The notes under the pieces: generated by a model
The model's input: the letters and a program-made list of their open reading frames with translations, nothing else
Database searches by the model: none
What the model was told of the DNA's origin: nothing
In this document: positions 6,489 through 63,920 of the stretch, piece by piece
Layout: the number at the start of each line of letters is the position of its first letter
Numbering within the stretch: position 1 is the first letter of the stretch
Source: Saprospiraceae bacterium
GTDB lineage: Bacteria > Bacteroidota > Bacteroidia > Chitinophagales > Saprospiraceae
Assembly (NCBI GenBank): GCA_020627705.1
Contig: JAHDGJ010000001.1
Location: 153,861 to 217,860 of the forward strand
Length of the DNA stretch: 64,000 nt
Direction of reading: 5' to 3'
Program-made: the position numbers and the translations under genes

Positions 6489-6992
6489 CTGAGCGGAATA
6501 GATAAACCCATCTTTGAAGAATTATTTGAGGCGTACTACAATCCTTTATGCAACTTTGCATTGAAGTATCTTAAGGATGAGCAGGCTGCTGAAGATGTCG
6601 TACAAGATGTGTTCGTTAAATTCTGGATGAAACGAAATGATGTTGACCACGACAAAAATGTGAAGTCTTTTCTATTTCAAAGTACACGCAATAGGGCTAT
6701 TGAATTGATAAGACGTAATAAGGTTGAAACCAAATACCTCGATAGTATAGATAAGTTGGAAGCGTGGCAAAATGAGGATTTAGGTGAAGTGTCAGAACGA
6801 TACATATTAATGGAAAAATTAAATAATTCAATGCGACAATTGCCCCCTAAATGCCAAGAGGTATTTAGGATGGGGAAGTTAAGTGGCTTAACTTACAGAG
6901 AAATTGCCAACGCGCTTGATATTTCCATTAAAACAGTGGAAAACCAGATGGGAAGGGCCTTGAGATTACTAAGACAAAACTTGAGCAATTAA
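6489..6992 (+). CDS. FecI-type ECF RNA polymerase sigma factor
   Basis: Sigma region 2 is clear in IFEELFEAYYNPLCNFALKYL followed by DEQAAEDVVQDVFVKFW, and region 4 in LPPKCQEVFRMGKLSGLTYR and the EIANALDISIKTVENQMGRA recognition helix. The conserved N-terminus lies upstream of the first in-frame TTG (6561). Between the in-frame stop at 6480-6482 and that TTG there is no ATG, GTG or TTG, so a CTG at 6489 (167 residues) is the most plausible start; this is uncertain. The fecR-like gene follows after 4 bases. In FecI/FecR systems the sigma factor transcribes the adjacent TonB-receptor operon when an outer-membrane signal arrives. Confidence 0.85.
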   Translation: MSGIDKPIFEELFEAYYNPLCNFALKYLKDEQAAEDVVQDVFVKFWMKRNDVDHDKNVKSFLFQSTRNRAIELIRRNKVETKYLDSIDKLEAWQNEDLGEVSERYILMEKLNNSMRQLPPKCQEVFRMGKLSGLTYREIANALDISIKTVENQMGRALRLLRQNLSN

Positions 6993-6996
6993 TCAG

Positions 6997-7965
6997 ATGA
7001 ATTTGGATAACATATTTGCGAATTTTTTCAACAACACAGCTTCAAAAGAAGAATTGGAGAATCTAGAACGTTGGAAAGCGGAGAGCGACGAAAACATTAA
7101 AGCGCTCAAGGAGATGGAAAATATTTGGAAATTAAGCGATGATATGAAAGAATACAAATCATTCAATACCTCCAAAGCTTTAATGAAAGTCAATTCTAAA
7201 ATTGTAGATCAAGAATTGGCAAAAGAAACTCAAAAACCAAAGTCAATAATAAGATACTTGATGCCTCTGGCAGCATCGCTTGTGTTGATTGCAGCCGTAG
7301 TTTGGGGCGTTCAAAATTTCCAGTCTGGTGAAGCAAGAATTACCCAATATGTTGCAGAGCAAGAAGTAAAAAACATAACCTTAGAAGATAATTCTATCAT
7401 CACCTTAGACAAGGAGGCAAAAATAAATTTGGTATCCAGTTTTGAAAATACACGTGATGTAGAAGTAGAGGGCCGGGTTTATTTTGATGTTTCAAAAGAC
7501 AAAATGCGTCCCTTCAAAATTATTACCGAAAATGGAACTATAAGTGTTTTGGGGACACAATTCGTAGTAGAATCTGACTTAAATAGCACTATCGTTTACC
7601 TCAAAGAAGGTGAAGTTAGTTTTACTCACAACTCTAGAGTTGTGCAATTACTACCTGGTGACGCCGTACGATCAGATGATCAAGGGATTACAAAATTTAA
7701 AGTACTTATCACAAATATTGATTCTTGGAGAAGCAATACATTATCCTTTGAAAAAACAAAGGTTAGCGACTTATTCCAAACACTATCAAAGCATTTTGAT
7801 TTGGAGTTAGATATCAAGAATAAAGGGTTTCAATTTGATTGTTCCATTTCATCTACCTACAACAACATGGGCATCAAAGAAATTTTAGACGAACTAAAAC
7901 TGGTCTTTGATATTAAGTATACGCTTAAAAATGGAAGATTAACCATACATACGCTCTCTTGCTAG
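6997..7965 (+). CDS. FecR-family anti-sigma/sigma-regulator membrane protein
   Basis: 322 residues. The cytoplasmic N-terminus (1-85) has the expected ERWKAESDENIKALKEMENIW helical region, followed by one transmembrane helix at about 86-105, a periplasmic FecR domain (about 115-215, with GTQFVV and the LKEGEVSF motif) and a C-terminal DUF4974 domain (about 245-320, LSFEKTKVSDLFQTLSKHF). It should hold the upstream sigma factor and receive the signal from the STN domain of the downstream receptor. The start codon lies 4 bases after the sigma stop. Confidence 0.92.
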   Translation: MNLDNIFANFFNNTASKEELENLERWKAESDENIKALKEMENIWKLSDDMKEYKSFNTSKALMKVNSKIVDQELAKETQKPKSIIRYLMPLAASLVLIAAVVWGVQNFQSGEARITQYVAEQEVKNITLEDNSIITLDKEAKINLVSSFENTRDVEVEGRVYFDVSKDKMRPFKIITENGTISVLGTQFVVESDLNSTIVYLKEGEVSFTHNSRVVQLLPGDAVRSDDQGITKFKVLITNIDSWRSNTLSFEKTKVSDLFQTLSKHFDLELDIKNKGFQFDCSISSTYNNMGIKEILDELKLVFDIKYTLKNGRLTIHTLSC

Positions 7966-8008
7966 GTAATTTCTTGCGTTAAAATTTCTTTTCTCTTATT
8001 TTCCCTAA

Positions 8009-10645
8009 ATGAAAATGAGGGTTTGCATAGTAGTCGTACTGAACACTTTTTTATCCTGTGGCATTTGGGCCCAAAAGTCTCTGCTTTTTGATGTTGTTAG
8101 CCTGTCCAATAAGCCCCAAACGGTCGAAGCGTTCCTTTTAGAACTTGAGCAGGTGGCTGACATCCAAATTACTTTTAGCCCTTCTCAAATTGACCTAAAA
8201 AAAAGGGTCAAACTTAATTTGAGTACACAAGATATTGCAGCCCATTTAAAAGCCATATTAAAGGGTCAAGCTATCCGTTATCAAATACCTACAAAGTCTA
8301 TTAAAAGAATAGTTTTAGTCAAAGATCCAAAGTTATTAAAGCGAACAATTAAGGGACTAATTATAGACGAACTTACAGGCGACCCATTGATAGGAGTTTT
8401 AGTCAGAGATAAGCAAAGCAATAACACATGCTATTCTGATGACAATGGCTTTTTTAGAATCTCTACCGATATTGGCAATGGTCAATTGGAATTTAGTTTG
8501 CTTGGCTTTGAAACCAAAATTAAAAACGAACCCACCTTTTCTGATGCAATATCCAAGGTTACATTAGATTTCGATAATTACTTGCCAGATATTCTTATTA
8601 CAGGATCCGAGATTAAAAAATTCGTTGGTATTCCTGGTGAAAACATTTACATGCGCAATATCTCCTCTTACACCAATTTCTTAGGTGAAAACAATGTTAT
8701 GGAAGAAATCAAAACTTCTACAGCCATTCAATCGGGGAATGAAGGAGAAATTGGCTTCTTGGCTAGAGGTGGAAGCAGCGATCAAAATCTAGTGTTATAC
8801 GAGGGTGTTCCGATGTATGTAACAGATCATACCGCAGGGCTGTCCAGCATTTTTGTTGCTGATGCTGTTAAGGACGCTGTTTTGTACACCGATGAATTTC
8901 CGTTAAAGTATGGTGGCAGACTTAGCTCTGTATTAGATATAAAATTAAAAAACGGAAAACGAGATAAAACTACTGGTACGATTAATACCTCGATAACAGG
9001 ATCTAATCTATTCCTGAGTGGGCCACTTTCAGATAAGTTGAGTTATAATATTTCGGGAAGATTATCTTGGATAGACCTGTACATTGATCCTATTTTGAAA
9101 AGAAGCTTCAATTATGAGGATAGTCAAATTGCTTACCAAGATTTCTCGGGAAAATTATTCTACCAAATAGACCCTGTAACACAATTGTCCATCACAGGAT
9201 ATACGGGAAACGATATTTTGAAATTGCAAAGAACTTCTAGTGAAGTACAAGAATCTAAGGTTTTTGAAGTAGGGGATTTGAATCAGATTGAATGGAGTTC
9301 AAAATTTTTAGCCCTTAATTTTCAGTCCTTCTTAAATTCCAATTGGATATTCAAGAGTCATTTAAGTGCGATGAATTACAAGCATATTTCTAGAGGAAAT
9401 TATTTCTTCAACGAATTTGATGCAGAAACAAACGATACACTACGCTTTAACAATTTAGACATATTGAGTTATTCTGAGATCAACGATGTCAATGCATATG
9501 CCGATTTACAATATGTTCCAAACGAAAAAATACAATTTAATCTTGGAGGTGGAAGACTCATACATAAGTTTACTCCAACCATAAGGCAAGAAACGACAGA
9601 ATCATTTCAAGACTTTGAAACCATTGTAAATGGTGACTCTAGTTTGGTCTCTTCAGAACGATACTTGTACGCAGAGCTGATTTCCACGCCTTCTAAATAT
9701 TTTAAAATTAATGCAGGTTTTAGGACGAGTAATTATAGTGTTAGAAATAAAACACATTCGTTTACTGAACCCAGAATTAATTTTAATTGGAAGCCAAGAC
9801 CACATCATGCATTTAATCTTTCGTACAATCAAATGGTACAGTATGTACATCGTTTGGTAAATCCTAGTGGGGGTTTACCTGCTGACTTATGGGTCCCTTC
9901 AACTGAAAACATTCTTCCAGAATTCGCTACTCATTTTTCCTTTCGTTATACCTATCAAAAGCGTGACTTCAAACTATCTTTTGCCGCTTATCAAAAGTCT
10001 TTTGATCAGCTCTTAGACTATACCAATTCCTTCGACTTATTCTTAGCAGTCCTTAATCAAGGGAATTTTGTACCTGTATATAATACAAGCAACGAATGGG
10101 AGAGACGAGTTTCAACTGGGACAGGGATTTCTAGAGGCCTAGAATTGTATCTCGCTAAATCATTAGGGGAATCCAAATTTCGACTTTCATATGCTTTGAG
10201 TAGAACCACTCGAACATTTGAAGACATCAATGAAGGAAAAGAATTTCCTTTTCGTTTTGATAGAACGCATGATCTAAACTTCTCTTTCAATACACCTATT
10301 TCTGACAAATGGGATTTTGCAATGCGTTGGATCTATGGTACAGGAAATACGCTTACCTTGGCTATTGAGCAGTTTCGAACACCCGAAGGGCTTCTTTTGC
10401 TCAACGCAAACGGACGCAACAACTACAGATTAGTGCCTTTCCATCATTTAGATTTACATGTAAATCGCATCTTCAAAATCCGTAAGATGGACTGCAGAAT
10501 GTCACTAGGCCTCTACAATGCATACAATCGTCTTAATCCTGTGTATGCTTTTCTATACCTAGACCCCAATCGTAACGATCTAAAAATCAGACAAGTAAGC
10601 CTGTTTCCTATCATCCCACATCTTGGTTTTACTGCTTCGTGGTAA
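8009..10645 (+). CDS. TonB-dependent receptor with STN signalling domain (FecA-like)
   Basis: 878 residues: signal peptide (1-21), STN domain (about 25-105, VEAFLLELEQVADIQITFSP), carboxypeptidase regulatory-like domain (about 113-190, IKGLIIDELTGDPLIGVLV), plug (about 200-310, with FLARGGSSDQNLVLYEGVP and YGGRLSSVLDIKL), then a 22-strand-type barrel to the C-terminus. The STN domain and the sigma/anti-sigma genes immediately upstream make this a trans-envelope signalling receptor. The transported ligand is unknown; nothing in the sequence shows iron-siderophore use in particular. The start could also be the second ATG, two codons later. Confidence 0.92.
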   Translation: MKMRVCIVVVLNTFLSCGIWAQKSLLFDVVSLSNKPQTVEAFLLELEQVADIQITFSPSQIDLKKRVKLNLSTQDIAAHLKAILKGQAIRYQIPTKSIKRIVLVKDPKLLKRTIKGLIIDELTGDPLIGVLVRDKQSNNTCYSDDNGFFRISTDIGNGQLEFSLLGFETKIKNEPTFSDAISKVTLDFDNYLPDILITGSEIKKFVGIPGENIYMRNISSYTNFLGENNVMEEIKTSTAIQSGNEGEIGFLARGGSSDQNLVLYEGVPMYVTDHTAGLSSIFVADAVKDAVLYTDEFPLKYGGRLSSVLDIKLKNGKRDKTTGTINTSITGSNLFLSGPLSDKLSYNISGRLSWIDLYIDPILKRSFNYEDSQIAYQDFSGKLFYQIDPVTQLSITGYTGNDILKLQRTSSEVQESKVFEVGDLNQIEWSSKFLALNFQSFLNSNWIFKSHLSAMNYKHISRGNYFFNEFDAETNDTLRFNNLDILSYSEINDVNAYADLQYVPNEKIQFNLGGGRLIHKFTPTIRQETTESFQDFETIVNGDSSLVSSERYLYAELISTPSKYFKINAGFRTSNYSVRNKTHSFTEPRINFNWKPRPHHAFNLSYNQMVQYVHRLVNPSGGLPADLWVPSTENILPEFATHFSFRYTYQKRDFKLSFAAYQKSFDQLLDYTNSFDLFLAVLNQGNFVPVYNTSNEWERRVSTGTGISRGLELYLAKSLGESKFRLSYALSRTTRTFEDINEGKEFPFRFDRTHDLNFSFNTPISDKWDFAMRWIYGTGNTLTLAIEQFRTPEGLLLLNANGRNNYRLVPFHHLDLHVNRIFKIRKMDCRMSLGLYNAYNRLNPVYAFLYLDPNRNDLKIRQVSLFPIIPHLGFTASW

Positions 10646-17154: not shown

Positions 17155-17694
17155 ATGATTCAAAGCCAAGCATATCAAATTCACGATGTGATAAATGCCT
17201 GTAAAAAAGGAGAACGCAAGGCTTTCAAGACTTTATATGATCAATATAGTGATGCTATGTATGCAGTTTGTTATAGGATGACAGAAAACAAGCACGATGC
17301 CGAGGATGTTCTTCAAGAAAGTTTTTTGTCTGCATTTTCAAAAATTCACCAATATACCCAAAGCAGCACGTTTGGAGCTTGGCTAAAACGAATTGTAATC
17401 AATACCTCACTAAATTTTTTAAAAAGGAAAAAGATAAATTTCATTGAATTCCCTGAAGAGAAAATGCGCCATAATGATGACAATGTTGAAACCTACGTCG
17501 AACACGATTTAGAAAAAATAAAACAAGCAATAAAGAAGCTGCCCAATGGCTACAAACAGATTATAATCCTTTACCTGATAGAAGGGTATGACCATACAGA
17601 AATAGCAGAGATTTTACACATCTCAACTAATACAAGCAAATCTCAATACAGTCGAGCTAAGAAAAAATTAATTGAAATATTAAAGAATAATTAA
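17155..17694 (+). CDS. ECF RNA polymerase sigma factor (RpoE-like)
   Basis: 179 residues. Region 2 is seen in FKTLYDQYSDAMYAVCYRMT and the DAEDVLQESFLSAFSKIHQY segment, region 4 in LPNGYKQIIILYLIEGYDHT and EIAEILHISTNTSKSQYSRA. Its stop codon overlaps the ATG of the next gene (TAATG), so translation of sigma and its partner is probably coupled. The four genes from here to 19980 look like one operon dedicated to an envelope response. The signal and regulon are unknown. Confidence 0.9.
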   Translation: MIQSQAYQIHDVINACKKGERKAFKTLYDQYSDAMYAVCYRMTENKHDAEDVLQESFLSAFSKIHQYTQSSTFGAWLKRIVINTSLNFLKRKKINFIEFPEEKMRHNDDNVETYVEHDLEKIKQAIKKLPNGYKQIIILYLIEGYDHTEIAEILHISTNTSKSQYSRAKKKLIEILKNN

Positions 17695-18233
17695 TGGATC
17701 AATTTGAAAAACATATAAGATCAAACAAAGAATACTTTGACGAACCCTTTAATGGGAAAGACAAACTTTGGGAAGCATTAGAAAAGGAGTTACCAGCTAA
17801 ACAAAAATCCTTTTCCTTAAGATGGAAAAGGGGCTTGTTGGGTTTGCTGGCACTATCTTTCCTCGCCTTGCTGGGTTGGAAAAACTATGTGCAAAAGCAG
17901 GATATAGAAACGCTTCATTATGCACTTGAGTTAAATATAGAACTCAATGACATCAATGCACATTATGGGACCCTTGTCTCAAACAACCTAACAAAGCTTG
18001 AATCCAATGTAAAATTAAGTCTTAAAGAAAAACAAGAATTCATGCATTTTATAGATGACCTGGCTCAAGAACAGGAATTGTTAAGAAATGAACTTAAAGT
18101 CAATCTTGATAATGAGAAAGTTCTTGATGCCATCATCGAAAACTTTAATCAACAAATAATTCTGATTGATCAGTTTGTAAAAAGATTAGAAAACGAAACA
18201 AATACACAAGATGAAAAAGGTATATCTCTATAA
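17694..18233 (+). CDS. Putative membrane-anchored anti-sigma partner
   Basis: 179 residues. A polar N-terminus (1-45) with the KLWEALEKELPAKQK pattern precedes a single transmembrane helix at about 48-63, then a long periplasmic region rich in E, L, N and Q that should form helices or a coiled coil (about 66-170). Position, coupling to the sigma gene and topology suggest anti-sigma function. The N-terminal pattern (LWxxIExEL, basic stretch, membrane helix) recurs in the protein at 60968-62476. No zinc-finger anti-sigma motif is present. Confidence 0.6.
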   Translation: MDQFEKHIRSNKEYFDEPFNGKDKLWEALEKELPAKQKSFSLRWKRGLLGLLALSFLALLGWKNYVQKQDIETLHYALELNIELNDINAHYGTLVSNNLTKLESNVKLSLKEKQEFMHFIDDLAQEQELLRNELKVNLDNEKVLDAIIENFNQQIILIDQFVKRLENETNTQDEKGISL

Positions 18234-19299
18234 AGCGATCGCAACGTTGTATATATGTTTACTAAGTTGTTTATGCTATCCGCAGAGCAAGGCTTCTAAA
18301 TTGCAAAATGAAGTTTTATCATCAAAAAGCATCGAAAAAGCAATCGTTCAAAACAAGTATGGCGATGTAAGCGTTTCGCAATCACCAAATGATTCGATAT
18401 ATGTTTCCTATCAGATAGAAGCCAGTAAAAAGGACTTAGATCATGCTGAAGAATTGTTGGATCGGATCAATACCAGCATAAACTCGTCAAGTTCCCTTCT
18501 ATTTATTGATGTGACGCTTGCTAAGTCCGAACGAAAATTTTTTGACCGCGTATTTAGTAGAATAGAGACGGGGGATGATAAATCTGATGTTAATATAAAT
18601 CTTGATCTAAAACTACCGCAAAAAGTCAACGTAGAAATCAATAATGAATTTGGCAATATTTTAATGGATTTAAAAGTTGAAAAATTTGAATGCACTTTAA
18701 AACACGGAGACTTACGTGTCACCGAAAATCTAAGTGAACTGGATTTGACACACCATTATGGTAGAGCAATATTGCGAGATGCAAACCAAGGAAGAATTAT
18801 ATTAAAAAACAGTCGATTCGAATGCGGTTCTATGACAGAATTGAATCTAATCTCAAAAGGCTCAGAAATCGAAATAAACACAGTCGAAAAATTAAGATTT
18901 GAATCCAAAAAGGATGAGGCTCAAATTAGTGCACTCGGAGGTGCTAACATACAGCTCAATTTTTCTGGACTCAGGTTAAATTCGATTTCAAAGAATTTGG
19001 ACGCCCGAATAAAATTGAGTGATTTGCGCATTGATCACTTTGAAGGAAAACAACAAGAACTTGATATAGACCAGGACAATTCCGAAATCGACATTGACCT
19101 TTCTAATACCTCTTTTAAAATAATTGGCAACATGGAAAAAGGAACATTTAGAGTCCCTGATCTTACCAAAGATGCCAATGTAGAAATCCTTGACGAAGAC
19201 AAAAACAAGAGGTTGATAACAGGTACCTATGGCAATGATGTACCGGGCACCATAGAAATAAAAGGAAAGAAGGGATATGTCCTTCTGAGAGACTATTAA
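18211..19299 (+). CDS. Exported beta-helix-like (DUF4097-like) protein
   Basis: 362 residues. A signal peptide (about 1-25, ending CYPQS) is followed by repeated short beta strands with N/D turns: VQNKYGDVSVSQSPNDSIYV, VNVEINNEFGNILMDLKVEK, LKHGDLRVTENLSELDLTHH, and so on to KGKKGYVLLRDY. This resembles the parallel beta-helix of DUF4097 adhesin-like proteins; the family call is tentative. It overlaps the upstream gene by 23 bases, supporting one transcript with the sigma factor. Confidence 0.6.
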   Translation: MKKVYLYKAIATLYICLLSCLCYPQSKASKLQNEVLSSKSIEKAIVQNKYGDVSVSQSPNDSIYVSYQIEASKKDLDHAEELLDRINTSINSSSSLLFIDVTLAKSERKFFDRVFSRIETGDDKSDVNINLDLKLPQKVNVEINNEFGNILMDLKVEKFECTLKHGDLRVTENLSELDLTHHYGRAILRDANQGRIILKNSRFECGSMTELNLISKGSEIEINTVEKLRFESKKDEAQISALGGANIQLNFSGLRLNSISKNLDARIKLSDLRIDHFEGKQQELDIDQDNSEIDIDLSNTSFKIIGNMEKGTFRVPDLTKDANVEILDEDKNKRLITGTYGNDVPGTIEIKGKKGYVLLRDY

Positions 19300-19323
19300 A
19301 AAATCACCATTAAAATTTTAATC

Positions 19324-19980
19324 ATGAAAAACGTATTCACAGTATTATTCGTACTTACTACCAGCTTTATATTTGCACAATCAGATTTTTCTTCAGTAAA
19401 TCAAGAAGAGAAAATAAATGAATTTGAATCCTTTAGCCCAAAAATTTCTAGCAATGGAATCTATGTTGGTCTTGGAGGTCTTTTTTCCTCTTACGACAAT
19501 AAGGAGTTCGTAGGTTTTCAAAGCAGAATTGCCTATGTCATGAATCATTCTTTTGAAATTGGTTTGGGTGGAGAAATTTTTACCAATAATAACATTGCCA
19601 ATATTGGAAACGAAAACACACAACAATTTTATGGGAGCCTCGGCTCTTTGCACTTAAAAGGTAAAATAATGGGATTCAAAAAAATACACTTTAGTGTACC
19701 TGTTAGTTTTGGTGGTGGCGCTGTCGGGGTGGATCAAGCAAACAACAAATTATTTAACAAAGGAAATGAGTTTGCTGAAGAAAATTGGGATCCGGTACTT
19801 TTTATGGATGCAGGGGTAAACATAGAGTTTAACATCAACAGATTTATCGGTTTTGAAGTGGGTGGAAAATATAGACGTTCAACTAAATTTGATTTAGCTG
19901 ATTATGACTTGACGAATCTCAATGGAATGTCTTTTTCAGCGATGTTAAAAGTTGGGCTATTTAATTTTGGCAGACACTAA
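19324..19980 (+). CDS. Small outer-membrane beta-barrel protein
   Basis: 218 residues with signal peptide (MKNVFTVLFVLTTSFIFAQ). Glycine- and aromatic-rich strands (YVGLGGLFSSYD, SFEIGLGGEIFT, FIGFEVGGKYRR, SFSAMLKVGLFNF) fit an 8-strand barrel. It is the fourth gene of the ECF sigma operon, 24 bases behind the beta-helix gene, and may be the outer-membrane end of that system. No specific family is recognised. Confidence 0.65.
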   Translation: MKNVFTVLFVLTTSFIFAQSDFSSVNQEEKINEFESFSPKISSNGIYVGLGGLFSSYDNKEFVGFQSRIAYVMNHSFEIGLGGEIFTNNNIANIGNENTQQFYGSLGSLHLKGKIMGFKKIHFSVPVSFGGGAVGVDQANNKLFNKGNEFAEENWDPVLFMDAGVNIEFNINRFIGFEVGGKYRRSTKFDLADYDLTNLNGMSFSAMLKVGLFNFGRH

Positions 19981-59957: not shown

Positions 59958-60920
59958 CTATAGAGTATTTAATATTTCATTTATTTCTTCGATTGTCTTT
60001 CTTTCAGGTTCTAAAAACTCTTGATTATTACTAGACAATACTACATTTTTCATTCCAAAATAATACACTCCATTATCAAGTGAGGTAACACTAATAATAT
60101 CAACTTCATCTCCAATAGGCATCATTTGGTAAGGATCACAGAATTGCTCTAAGTCTGGATTTCCTGACAGCGAAACCACACTTCTTCTTTCTTTAAATAC
60201 TACGAATAGCGCGGTGTTTACGTTAGTAAATATTTCAGGCAATTCAACACATATTCCAGTCTGTTCGTTTTGGGCAATGTTGCTAAATACATCACAATTG
60301 ACCCAGGTCAAACTATCCATTTCAAAATCATAACCTACAACCTCAATACTATCCGTAGCATTTCCCCACACTGCAGTTTGGATTCCCTCGGAATAAAGAT
60401 CCCAATTATAACTTGAAGAAGAATCATCTCCATAAAAAAGCATCATTTCATCATTTGGATTTAAATCCGAAAGTTGAACCGAAATACTTTTGTTAGGACT
60501 CAAACTATAGTTTAGGGTTCTAGAAACATTAGAAGCTTTCAACAAAATCACTCCTCCTGTTTCCAATAGCGCCCCATCCGAAATTGTAGGTTTGTTGAAA
60601 CGAATCAAATCACCTTTCTCCTTTAAAATCCTATATTCCAATCTAATATCCTCATCGACAAGAAGTTGTTGATCCTCATCAACAAAGGCCTTAGAAGGAA
60701 CTTCAATACGACTAAAGTCTTCTGTTTCTATTACCGTTCCTAATTCCGAATTAAATAATCGAACATTTGCAGGATCTTGAACATCCGAGTAAAATGTTCC
60801 GACTTCACCATCAGCACCTGTAGTTACAAATTCTGAACTGTCCTGATAACAACTTGATAGGAACATTAAGATTGCCACAAACGGGAGACAAGATTTAAGT
60901 ATTCCTTTTTTTAAAACCAT
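59958..60920 (-). CDS. Lipoprotein of unknown function, end of the third ECF sigma operon
   Basis: 320 residues. The signal (KKGILKSCLPFVAILMFLSS) ends in the lipobox cysteine of SSCYQ. The mature part is beta-rich and acidic (IRLEYRILKEKGDLIRFNKP, ILLKASNVSRTLNYSLSPNK), suggesting an immunoglobulin-like or carboxypeptidase-like surface protein. I recognise no family. It follows the barrel/anti-sigma-like gene by 47 bases on the same strand and ends before a strong terminator. Confidence 0.7.
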   Translation of the reverse strand: MVLKKGILKSCLPFVAILMFLSSCYQDSSEFVTTGADGEVGTFYSDVQDPANVRLFNSELGTVIETEDFSRIEVPSKAFVDEDQQLLVDEDIRLEYRILKEKGDLIRFNKPTISDGALLETGGVILLKASNVSRTLNYSLSPNKSISVQLSDLNPNDEMMLFYGDDSSSSYNWDLYSEGIQTAVWGNATDSIEVVGYDFEMDSLTWVNCDVFSNIAQNEQTGICVELPEIFTNVNTALFVVFKERRSVVSLSGNPDLEQFCDPYQMMPIGDEVDIISVTSLDNGVYYFGMKNVVLSSNNQEFLEPERKTIEEINEILNTL

Positions 60921-60967: not shown

Positions 60968-62476
60968 CTAAAACCGATATCGTATACCTGAGTTTAGTCC
61001 AAGTACTACGTAGTTTTGATTCAAAGGATAATCTCCTAAGGTAAAGGATTGAGTAAAATACCGAATACTTGGCTTGAAATAGAAATCTATTCCTTCAATC
61101 CAATGATACATAAGACCTGCACTGGCATATGTGCTAATCCCTAAACTGTTTTTAAAGGCTCTATAACTTCCATTTTCATCGGAAGTAAACCAGTTTCTTT
61201 GACCTGTAGGATCGAAGAATTTCCCACGTTGCTCAGCATGTAGATTGAGGTAAATCCCTGCATCAAAACTATATGACCACTTTTTACCTTTATATAATTC
61301 GAAACCAACCAACACAGGTAAATCAAAAGATTTATATCGATTGATAATTTCCTCTTTTTCACTACCAAATTCGGTGTACGTATAAATATCTAAAGTGTCG
61401 CCAGTGATCGGGTCGGTATCTACTACCGTAATATCTCTTTGCGATTCTGGATCTTGATAACTAAACTTTTCATTGATCTGAGAATAGTTTAGTCCAATTT
61501 TGAATGATATACCCCTAGGCGTCATAAACATCATTCTTGCCCCCATACTATAACTTAAAAGTGTGGACTCACTATCGTTTCTATCAATTTGATTCTGCAT
61601 GATAGAACTGTCTCTTGACTTAGCTGTTAAGGATCTCAGCGCAACTTCAGGCGAATAATAAGCTTCTAGATATAAACCCATTTTATCCTTTACCCAAGAA
61701 GGGCAATCCGAACCTTTCGCAGCAAATAGATTCAAATTCAAATCAAGTTTTTGCTCTGTATTCAATGGCACCATGGTGCTCATTGGTAAACCACGAGAAC
61801 TTGCAACAACATTACTTTCTTGGATCTTAATGGTTTCTATTGAAGTATTTCCCCTTGATTCCTTGCTCTTCTCCTGATTGCTCTTCAAAAGCAACTTATT
61901 TAAATCAATTGAAGAACCTCTCTTTTTATCAACAAATATGGGTTCTGTAAACACTATCTTTCTTTTGTTTTGCCTTTTATCCTTTTTTACTCGAACAGCA
62001 GATGTATTTAAGGGATCATTTAAAAAGGCAGTATTCGTTGATACAGAAGTTATAGGGTTTAGATTGTCTGTTTCGTTTTTCTTTAACTTTTCTACTTTAT
62101 TTGATTCATCCGCATACTTAATAGAAATTGGATGCTCAACAAATTCTACAGAATCTGAGGTATACACATCTGGGCTACTTGCTGAAGATTTTAGTTCTTT
62201 TGAAAACTGTACGTTTAATTCACTTTGCGTATCAGCCACCACTTTTTCTAGAAGCGAAGTTTCCTGGGCAACTTCAGGATTTGAAGTCGTACTAAAATAA
62301 GTTACACCGCCAACAATCAATATAATTCCCAACAATGCCAATGCATAAAGCCAAAATGGCCTCCTTTTTTTAACCGGATGCAACTCCGACTCAATATTAT
62401 CCCACAGGTTACTGGGGTAATCGCTGGAATAATTTTCCAGTTTAGATTTGAAAATATTGTCAAAGTCTTTGTTCAT
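60968..62476 (-). CDS. Candidate trans-envelope protein: anti-sigma-like anchor plus outer-membrane barrel
   Basis: 502 residues. The N-terminus (1-40, SNLWDNIESELHPVKKRRP) resembles the start of the sigma partner at 17694; one transmembrane helix spans about 41-61. A ~200-residue S/T/N/K-rich linker follows (62-265). From about 266 to 502 there are typical barrel strands (MGLYLEAYYSPEVALRSL, SYSMGARMMFM, LPVLVGFELYKGKKWSYSFD, SIRYFTQSFTLG) with a C-terminal YRF. Its ATG overlaps the stop of the sigma gene by 4 bases. A single chain from cytoplasm to outer membrane is an inference from topology. Confidence 0.75.
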   Translation of the reverse strand: MNKDFDNIFKSKLENYSSDYPSNLWDNIESELHPVKKRRPFWLYALALLGIILIVGGVTYFSTTSNPEVAQETSLLEKVVADTQSELNVQFSKELKSSASSPDVYTSDSVEFVEHPISIKYADESNKVEKLKKNETDNLNPITSVSTNTAFLNDPLNTSAVRVKKDKRQNKRKIVFTEPIFVDKKRGSSIDLNKLLLKSNQEKSKESRGNTSIETIKIQESNVVASSRGLPMSTMVPLNTEQKLDLNLNLFAAKGSDCPSWVKDKMGLYLEAYYSPEVALRSLTAKSRDSSIMQNQIDRNDSESTLLSYSMGARMMFMTPRGISFKIGLNYSQINEKFSYQDPESQRDITVVDTDPITGDTLDIYTYTEFGSEKEEIINRYKSFDLPVLVGFELYKGKKWSYSFDAGIYLNLHAEQRGKFFDPTGQRNWFTSDENGSYRAFKNSLGISTYASAGLMYHWIEGIDFYFKPSIRYFTQSFTLGDYPLNQNYVVLGLNSGIRYRF

Positions 62477-63033
62477 ACAGCAATTTTTTGACTGTCCAAT
62501 ACTTTTTCTTGTAAGATCCTACGAGCTTTAACCAGTTGAGATCTTGAGGTACTTTCTCCAATTCCCAATTTCTCACCTATCTCTTTGTGACTAAATCCTT
62601 CTATGACATACATATTAAAAACAATTCTATAGCCCTCTGGCAAACTCTCTATCATGCCCAATAATTCTTCTTCACCCAAATTCGATAAGACTGTAGACTC
62701 AATAGACCCTTGATAGGTCTCATCGATTCCTATTTTTTCGTGGGTAAATGATTTTCTAGATACTTTTTTAAGCGCGGTATTGATCATGATTTTCCTAACC
62801 CAACCTTCAAATGAGCCTTCAAATTGAAATTTTTCAAGATTTCGAAACATCTTGATGAAGCCTTCTTGCATTATATCTTGCGCTTCTAAATGATGACGAG
62901 CATATCGGCGACATACTACCATCATTTTAGGAGCATGCAACTCAAAAAGATCCCTTTGACATTTTCTGTCTCCGGATATACAAGCTTTTATGAGCTCCTT
63001 TTCGTTCAATATATTCGACTTTAATGGGGACAC
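62473..63033 (-). CDS. ECF RNA polymerase sigma factor
   Basis: 186 residues from a GTG at 63033; an in-frame stop just upstream leaves no ATG. Region 2 is seen in ISGDRKCQRDLFELHAPKMM and the ARHHLEAQDIMQEGFIKMFR segment, region 4 in LPEGYRIVFNMYVIEGFSHK and EIGEKLGIGESTSRSQLVKA. It heads the operon with the barrel-fused partner and the lipoprotein. A candidate autoregulatory promoter precedes it. Confidence 0.9.
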   Translation of the reverse strand: MSPLKSNILNEKELIKACISGDRKCQRDLFELHAPKMMVVCRRYARHHLEAQDIMQEGFIKMFRNLEKFQFEGSFEGWVRKIMINTALKKVSRKSFTHEKIGIDETYQGSIESTVLSNLGEEELLGMIESLPEGYRIVFNMYVIEGFSHKEIGEKLGIGESTSRSQLVKARRILQEKVLDSQKIAV

Positions 63034-63095: not shown

Positions 63096-63920
63096 TTATT
63101 CTTCCTCAATAATTGCCTCATCAACTATTTCATTACCATCTCCATCTCTATCAATAAAACCTGCCGCCTTTACTTGGTCTTTAACTTCTTCACCTTTAGA
63201 GGCTAGAACCTCTGTATTTTCATTGATGGTAATTTTTCCTTCTGAAAAAGCACCGTGATCTCCGTCGGCAAATTTCTCTGCCTTGGTAAAGAAATCATCC
63301 GTACCCTCGAGCATTGACCCACTAGCATCCAAATCATCCTCGGCAAATTCTCTCTTAGGCTTGGCATCCTGTTCGGCCTTAAATGCTTCCGCTTTTTCCA
63401 TCGTCTCGTTAAACTTCTCAGAAACATAAGTGGACGCTTCTTGGGCTTTGTCCAATAATTTGTCCTTGGCTTCCAAAACTTTTTCTCCCACGGTCTCAGA
63501 TAGATCGCCAAATTTATCTTTGGCATCACCCCCAACGTCAAGTACTTTTTCTCCAACATTTTCTGAAATTTCACCAAATTTTTCCGATAAATTAGATCCT
63601 ACTTCCATCACTTTTTCTCCGACAGTCTCGGAAAGATCACCAGCTTTTTGTGCTAGATCAGAGTTACTCACTTTATCATAAACATCAGAAAGACCGTCTT
63701 TTGATTTCTCAAAAACATCGGATCCTTTTTCTAAAATTGAATCACGCAAACCAGAAGTTCCGTCTTTTAATTTTTCGCCCATAGTAGATAATACGTCTCC
63801 TGCATTATCTACGAGTTCCGAACTTTTTTCTTTGGCAAAGTCTGCTGTTTTGTCTGCGGCTGACTTGGCAACTGATTTCTTTACAAAAAGAAGTTTTTTT
63901 ATCTCATTGAAAAATCCCAT
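63096..63920 (-). CDS. LEA-like repetitive helical protein
   Basis: 274 residues. The N-terminus (MGFFNEIKKLLFVKKSVAKS) is amphipathic and basic without a signal peptide. Residues ~20-165 are hydrophilic with 11-residue periodicity typical of LEA/apolipoprotein-like amphipathic helices, including three 22-residue copies (95-116, 117-138, 139-160) around SETVGEKVxEVG. The C-terminal part is acidic (EEVKDQVKAAGFIDRDGDGN, then EAIIEEE) with a single EF-hand-like DxDxDG stretch. Such proteins are linked to desiccation or membrane stress in other organisms; here that is inference. Confidence 0.75.
   Translation of the reverse strand: MGFFNEIKKLLFVKKSVAKSAADKTADFAKEKSSELVDNAGDVLSTMGEKLKDGTSGLRDSILEKGSDVFEKSKDGLSDVYDKVSNSDLAQKAGDLSETVGEKVMEVGSNLSEKFGEISENVGEKVLDVGGDAKDKFGDLSETVGEKVLEAKDKLLDKAQEASTYVSEKFNETMEKAEAFKAEQDAKPKREFAEDDLDASGSMLEGTDDFFTKAEKFADGDHGAFSEGKITINENTEVLASKGEEVKDQVKAAGFIDRDGDGNEIVDEAIIEEE
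63441..63638 (-). repeat. Three tandem 66-base coding repeats (22 residues each)
   Basis: Each copy encodes a segment like DLSETVGEKVMEVG followed by an 8-residue variable part; copies 1 and 2 end in KFG. The DNA copies are diverged but aligned without gaps. Confidence 0.75.

Follow-up and report, generated by a model that had tools for sequence, protein, structure and literature searches.

In FecI/FecR/FecA systems, a surface signal reaches an ECF sigma factor through an inner-membrane anti-sigma protein. Another class, named Dma or Reo, was reportedly founded in a PNAS paper of 2024. The founding paper is cited in PMC12045153. According to the available text of PMC13088901, Dma proteins consist of an anti-sigma segment, a membrane helix, a long disordered tether and a barrel, and are encoded beside ECF21 sigma factors; Dma1 and Dma2 are known from B. 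thetaiotaomicron. A P. vulgatus protein, described in 2022 and predicted to span the periplasm with an outer-membrane barrel at its C-terminus (PMC9308784), is named Reo in PMC13114119. In this class, the sigma regulon becomes active once the anti-sigma gene is disrupted, and BcpT, with lipid A-core as its receptor, raises the sigma gene 33-fold; many other BcpT-induced genes are also induced by bacteroidetocin A, a BamA inhibitor (PMC9308784). BcpT or Bd-A raises the ecfO-reo genes more than any others, and Reo is described as likely to sense outer membrane stress (PMC13114119).

The DNA analysed here, called the window, is a stretch of 64,000 nucleotides from a Saprospiraceae bacterium (assembly GCA_020627705.1, contig JAHDGJ010000001.1, positions 153,861 to 217,860). 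The original prediction, made from its sequence alone, was that one gene encodes a single chain reaching from the cytoplasm to the outer membrane and controlling an ECF sigma factor. This is the best-supported reading of the locus, and it matches the published Dma/Reo class.

Gene, predicted structure and class membership

The fused anti-sigma/barrel ORF is located at 60968-62476 on the minus strand and encodes 502 aa with the C-terminal end RYRF. The ECF sigma ORF (62473-63033, minus strand, 186 aa, GTG start as listed) overlaps it, as had been noted at the outset; the overlap is 4 bp (62473-62476). The sigma ORF was matched by Pfam Sigma70_r2 (E 4.2e-14) and Sigma70_r4_2 (E 2.9e-15) and by NCBIfam sigma70-ECF (E 3e-25), and is assigned from these family matches as ECF at the general level. 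The fused protein, searched alone, gave only sub-threshold barrel matches in Pfam, among them OMP_b-brl_2 at E 0.031, under the cut-off, and none in NCBIfam. OMP_b-brl_2 was matched at E 0.01 or better by 21 of the 54 members of the family profile described below, the window protein not being one of the 21. No FecR domain (PF04773) was matched in the fused protein by Pfam up to E 0.1. A FecR anti-sigma/transducer identity was rejected on the lack of this domain and on the eight-stranded barrel carried on the protein's own chain. A FecI/FecR/FecA system consists of three proteins and includes both a FecR domain and a TonB-dependent receptor; neither was found in the fused protein.

The fused protein was modelled with AlphaFold2 (AF2) from an alignment of 54 sequences. 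Residues 1-40 (62357-62476, minus strand, as are all parts of the gene) are a putative cytoplasmic sigma-binding module of two short helices, 3-14 and 24-32 in the model, with the pattern D..F(K/R)xKL...PxxLWxxI. Residues 41-63 (62288-62356) are a predicted helix that, from the model, the charge and the rarity of AxA motifs, would sit uncleaved in the inner membrane. Residues 64-262 (61691-62287) would form a disordered periplasmic tether, with pLDDT <50 over most of their length (68-101, 104-230, 242-257 and 259-262). Residues 263-502 (60971-61690) are predicted as an eight-stranded barrel, placed putatively in the outer membrane on the basis of AF2, VIA-align, Foldseek and conservation; the strands run from 267 to 501, and ten-residue blocks have pLDDT 93-98 from residue 271 on. 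The barrel is modelled with high confidence, the N-terminal helices and the membrane helix with fair to good confidence. Against solved structures, the modelled barrel came closest to OmpA (VIA-align Z 17.3, rmsd 2.5 A over 170 aligned residues), followed by NspA, OprF and OmpW; Foldseek was run as well. These OmpA-type matches speak to the fold of the predicted barrel and not to its function. A sequence search of solved structures with profiles A1 and A2 gave weak matches only, which were judged to be chance.

The model thus carries the anti-sigma-like segment, the single membrane helix (predicted at 41-61 beforehand) and the C-terminal barrel (266-502) that had been read from the sequence. 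The linker of about 200 residues, described as low-complexity, stands as a disordered stretch of residues about 64-262 but not as a repetitive one: its composition is rich in S, K, L, N, V and E and has no repetitive character. CnrY, a class II anti-sigma domain whose helices wrap sigma2 and sigma4, is not known to have a tether or a barrel. It is a two-helix anti-sigma (PMC7406223), and the window protein has two short predicted helices in its N-terminal module.

Conservation was read from the ORFs matched in the fetched loci (74 distinct, 70 with at least 400 aa kept). The barrel holds R299 and G328 in 70/70, E303, P387 and N411 in 69/70 each, and N379 in 66/70. C258 (61703-61705), the sole Cys of the protein, lies at the border of tether and barrel and is kept in 58/70; the tether is otherwise little conserved. 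The N-terminal module is repeated in some fused relatives, with three copies detected in L099 (and a fourth by eye), three in L093 and two in L009, which suggests a self-contained unit.

Profile A1, built from 54 same-family proteins, was run against 392 genomes of the phylum, and at least 166 matched at E 1e-4; the weaker of these matches may include chance, and many cover the N-terminal part alone. The genes at the Dma2 place in genomes G383 and G375 were identified by gene order. In G383, the order sigma, Dma, DUF4943, DUF4858 and nitronate monooxygenase equals the five-gene order of BT_1559 to BT_1555 (PMC13088901), and A1 matches the gene at the Dma2 place with E 4.6e-11 in the whole genome and E 2.7e-20 for the ORF in a small set. 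The same locus is present in G375 with a weaker match (E 8.5e-5 in the genome, E 5.6e-12 for the ORF), the sigma and Dma genes being assigned by profile and DUF4943 and DUF4858 by Pfam. As a marker of dma2, DUF4943 (PF16301, confirmed by family search) led to the dma2 order in these two of six fetched loci, the other four being without it.

By the profile match as well as by its layout, the window protein is placed in the Dma class. With Dma2/Das2 (BT_1558/BT_1559) it shares the anti-sigma segment, one helix, the long disordered tether, the barrel, the adjacent ECF sigma and further operon genes (PMC13088901), but it is longer (502 aa vs 351-356 aa at the Dma2 place in G383 and G375), and its downstream gene encodes a ZU5-like lipoprotein without a DUF4943 match. 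Reo/EcfO of P. vulgatus and B. fragilis is likewise described as spanning all compartments and having a C-terminal outer-membrane barrel, with a sigma regulon that is active on loss of the anti-sigma and that includes regulation of surface lipoproteins (NigD) (PMC9308784, PMC13114119), whereas the downstream lipoprotein of the window has no Pfam match of any kind, NigD included. The fused architecture is already in print, which the original prediction could not know, and the locus alone is no discovery; it is a well-conserved example of the class outside gut Bacteroides. This analysis adds a lower limit to tether length, counterparts that look split, a lipoprotein as partner and the extension of the class to Balneolaceae.

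Topology and proposed signal path

The barrel needs export, and the protein has no other candidate export signal than helix 41-63, so this helix might be a cleaved signal peptide, with the barrel independent of it and the N-terminal part a mere leader. Residues 1-40 are conserved (L13 and W25 each in 63/70, D6 in 55/70, I28 in 54/70), which argues against a discarded leader, since that would not need conservation. The same module also occurs in barrel-less proteins, and a sigma ORF lies upstream in 69/70 relatives (at most 35 bp away in either direction in 65/70, with the identical 4-bp overlap in 44/70). An AxA near the helix end is present in only 5/70, so the signal-peptidase motif is not conserved. 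The mean net charge is +2.9 in the 12 residues before the helix and -0.8 in the 12 after it, and the inside is the more positive in 64/70. Judged from these sequence features, a cleaved signal peptide is highly improbable, and a helix retained in the membrane is favoured, as first proposed.

Tether lengths, which rest on a hydrophobicity-picked helix and on the alignment of the barrel start, were 115-240 residues in the 70 relatives. The shortest, at 115, belongs to L028, the sole relative without a visible sigma and one with a weak helix; the next shortest is 129. A second set of 41 relatives, made up of Balneolaceae and of genera that we take to be Cytophagales and Sphingobacteriales, had tethers of 133-388 residues, and four short relatives outside both sets had 128-137. 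A floor with none below 115 in the 70 and 41 relatives, together with an open upper tail, is as would be expected of a chain bridging the periplasm. The charge, the rarity of AxA, the conservation of the module and the tether floor agree with one another, and from them we infer a protein spanning both membranes.

The locus is probably a Dma/Reo-type sensor of outer-membrane stress that holds the sigma factor until the barrel or the tether is disturbed, the trigger being proposed by analogy with the published members. Residues 1-40 would retain the adjacent ECF sigma at the inner membrane, helix 41-63 would anchor the chain, residues 64-262 would cross the periplasm as a flexible tether, and the eight-stranded barrel of predicted structure, residues 263-502, would lie in the outer membrane. 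If the barrel failed to assemble or was pulled off, or if the surrounding outer membrane was damaged, the inhibitor would be inactivated, most likely by protease, with the exposed tether cut first and the membrane helix afterwards. The freed sigma might then transcribe its own operon, including the ZU5-like lipoprotein, and envelope-protective genes, on the analogy of Reo and Dma1/2.

The most conserved positions of the protein are in the barrel (R299 and G328, each in 70/70), and they bear on the main rival to stress sensing, in which conserved outer-face residues of the barrel bind a specific external molecule and the tether relays a conformational change or tension, cleavage not being the trigger. 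The model puts R299 and E303 within or directly behind helix 290-302, between strands 1 and 2, a region that would be on the outer side if the N-terminus enters from the periplasm, and their invariance could mean ligand sensing instead. At least five fused copies are present in the host genome, in keeping with a set of sensors for different ligands. Divergent relatives, however, retain the conserved barrel residues too, which a structural or assembly role fits at least equally; the published inducers of the class amount to envelope damage (PMC9308784, PMC13114119), and some 200 disordered residues are ill suited to transmit a conformational change. Ligand reception is for these reasons considered unlikely.

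Barrel-less relatives and the second locus of the window

Barrel-less proteins of 225-281 aa with the same module were examined in 29 loci (9 + 20), a subset of those listed in the phylum search. They match A1 over residues 1-67 (E 1.7e-14). A sigma is upstream in 29/29, and the next gene is visible in 28/29, the contig ending at L229. All 28 next genes have a signal-peptide-like start. A signal peptide with a barrel-like end was seen in 26/28 of them vs 4/38 of the next genes at most 200 bp from fused genes (Fisher p 5e-12); the rule is crude and ad hoc, and the sets come from different families, so the figure is a contrast and not a matched control. Pfam at E 0.01 matched OMP_b-brl_2 in 13/28 and OMP_b-brl in 2/28 of these separate genes. 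The module thus seems to have two kinds of association with a barrel, one within a fused chain and the other with the product of an adjacent gene.

The search for relatives with the two halves as separate genes, proposed with the original prediction, is answered in part: the barrel-less module is found beside a secreted, mostly barrel-like gene. The separate barrels (profile A4) were aligned with the fused barrel by hhalign at a probability of 24% (E 8e-4, 85 columns), a level at which a common family is not shown; a plain division of the fused gene in two is therefore not established as the origin of the split form. A natural split of the fused gene at L089, in genome G064, was rejected, the ORFs being in different frames and the second ORF having no signal peptide. 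The frame change at L089 (616-2042, minus strand) is near the tether end, and this locus is a broken gene or a sequence error. The tails of the barrel-less proteins end by eye in family-specific conserved stretches, which we would guess to be candidates for barrel docking.

The barrel might also be a mere anchor that keeps the anti-sigma stretched, with the sensed event in the periplasm, either a protease cut of the tether or a redox change at C258. The keeping of this single Cys in 58/70 at the tether/barrel border, within a tether otherwise little conserved, and the existence of barrel-less relatives with long tails agree with such an arrangement. C258 is lost in 12/70 while the barrel invariants stay, though, and the barrel seems to be wanted in fused and split arrangements alike, since the barrel-less relatives adjoin a secreted and mostly barrel-like gene. 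A role of the barrel as anchor only is accordingly rated as quite improbable.

Class I anti-sigma domains stand beside 6% of Bacteroidetes ECFs vs 32% over all phyla, and the available text of PMC7406223 suggests broken synteny or other anti-sigma classes as the explanation. The N-terminal module is a candidate for one such other class. As a tentative proposal, held at somewhat less than an even chance, the module may be a general, unnamed anti-sigma domain of Bacteroidota type that occurs either fused, as in Dma, or split, with a long periplasmic tail whose conserved end docks on the secreted barrel of the next gene; both forms would carry the state of the outer membrane to an ECF sigma by a physical chain, and the domain would fill part of the class I anti-sigma gap. 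Among open-licence literature, including the partial texts of PMC9308784, PMC9723704, PMC10101095 and PMC7712824, no split system with a separate barrel was found; the fused type is described in PMC9308784. In the split-looking relatives, unlike the fused protein, the barrel gene could be deleted without touching the anti-sigma. NCBIfam matched none of seven sigmas (five from split loci) at the strict limit of E 1e-30. A similar N-terminal part heads an 895-aa protein at L163 (G166:C8, 936-3623). By eye, this protein presumably has carboxypeptidase-regulatory, TonB-plug-like and von Willebrand-like segments.

A second locus of the window carries the module without a barrel. An N-terminal profile (residues 1-63 of the 70 relatives) was run on the 131 window ORFs of at least 60 aa and ranked the fused protein, itself in the profile, first (E 5e-23), the ORF at 17694-18233 (plus strand) second (E 9.5e-9), and a FecR protein third (E 0.0019). 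The N-terminal pattern that the original prediction held to be common to the fused protein and 17694-18233 is thus beyond chance. This barrel-less anti-sigma is preceded by a second ECF sigma at 17155-17694 (plus strand, by Pfam), and two genes downstream of it a separate secreted protein (19324-19980, plus strand) is a candidate outer-membrane barrel, being the best of the 131 window ORFs against the separate-barrel profile, with a weak match (E 0.0078) and no Pfam match. From these matches the 17155-19980 locus may be a split system. A sigma/FecR pair is located at 6561-7965 (plus strand; Pfam Sigma70, FecR/FecR_C), a local counterpart to the FecR systems with which the fused protein had been compared. 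Next comes an 878-aa protein that bears carboxypeptidase-regulatory domains, and the whole (6561-10645, plus strand) adds a layout of FecI/FecR type to the one-chain and barrel-less types of this window.

Distribution and operon neighbours

A first contig scan with the single window protein as the query found no relative. At least 123 of 150 same-family genomes matched the window protein at E 0.001 or better, some with partial coverage. In the host genome, five sigma/fused-anti-sigma pairs with profile-supported barrels are on C4, C24, C17, C34 and C18, and two more likely pairs, by layout and length only, are on C17 near 107 kb and on C3. In the phylum search, seven loci of one family had the sigma and the full architecture. 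Balneolaceae/Balneolales contributed 17 of the 41 loci of the second set (L177-L193), for instance Rhodohalobacter sulfatireducens and several Fodinibius, and A1 aligns with the barrel of fused Balneolaceae proteins at E 1.5e-14. The class extends to Balneolaceae. The available text of PMC13088901 has the class solely among Bacteroidota; the conflict is partly taxonomic, as NCBI places Balneolaceae in the phylum Balneolota and the genome collection used here places them in the phylum of the window.

Downstream of the fused gene and co-oriented with it is a lipoprotein gene (59958-60920, minus strand; lipobox Cys24 by eye). Its model (pLDDT 88.9) has a ZU5/GAIN-like domain at 49-213 and a transthyretin/CnaB-like domain at 217-309. 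The first domain reached VIA-align Z 9-10 (up to 9.9), little above the "common" level of the tool, and Foldseek gave nothing for the lipoprotein at E 0.001 or below. Of 60 fused loci in which a downstream ORF is visible, 24 have a member of the lipoprotein family within the next two ORFs, a count that includes the 21 loci from which the lipoprotein profile was built; among the split loci it is 0/29. The family also directly adjoins fused genes in L097-L099, from three genomes that belong to the same order but to another family. Longer relatives of the lipoprotein in the host genome immediately precede the sigma genes of three further fused copies (C24, C34 and C18; E 3e-10 to 8e-7). The Reo and Dma1 sigmas drive NigD proteins (PMC13088901, PMC13114119), and by this analogy the ZU5-like lipoprotein would be an output of the window sigma. 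Pairing of C258 with a Cys of the lipoprotein was considered and dropped; L093 and L094 lack both inner residues of the lipoprotein, C224 and C261, a joint loss suggesting a bond between these two.

The sigma gene is immediately preceded by a co-oriented gene for an amphipathic, apolipoprotein-like protein (63096-63920, minus strand) with sub-threshold Pfam matches to Apolipoprotein and YtxH. Relatives of this protein were found by phmmer upstream of the sigma in the fused loci L006, L076, L089, L031 and L069.
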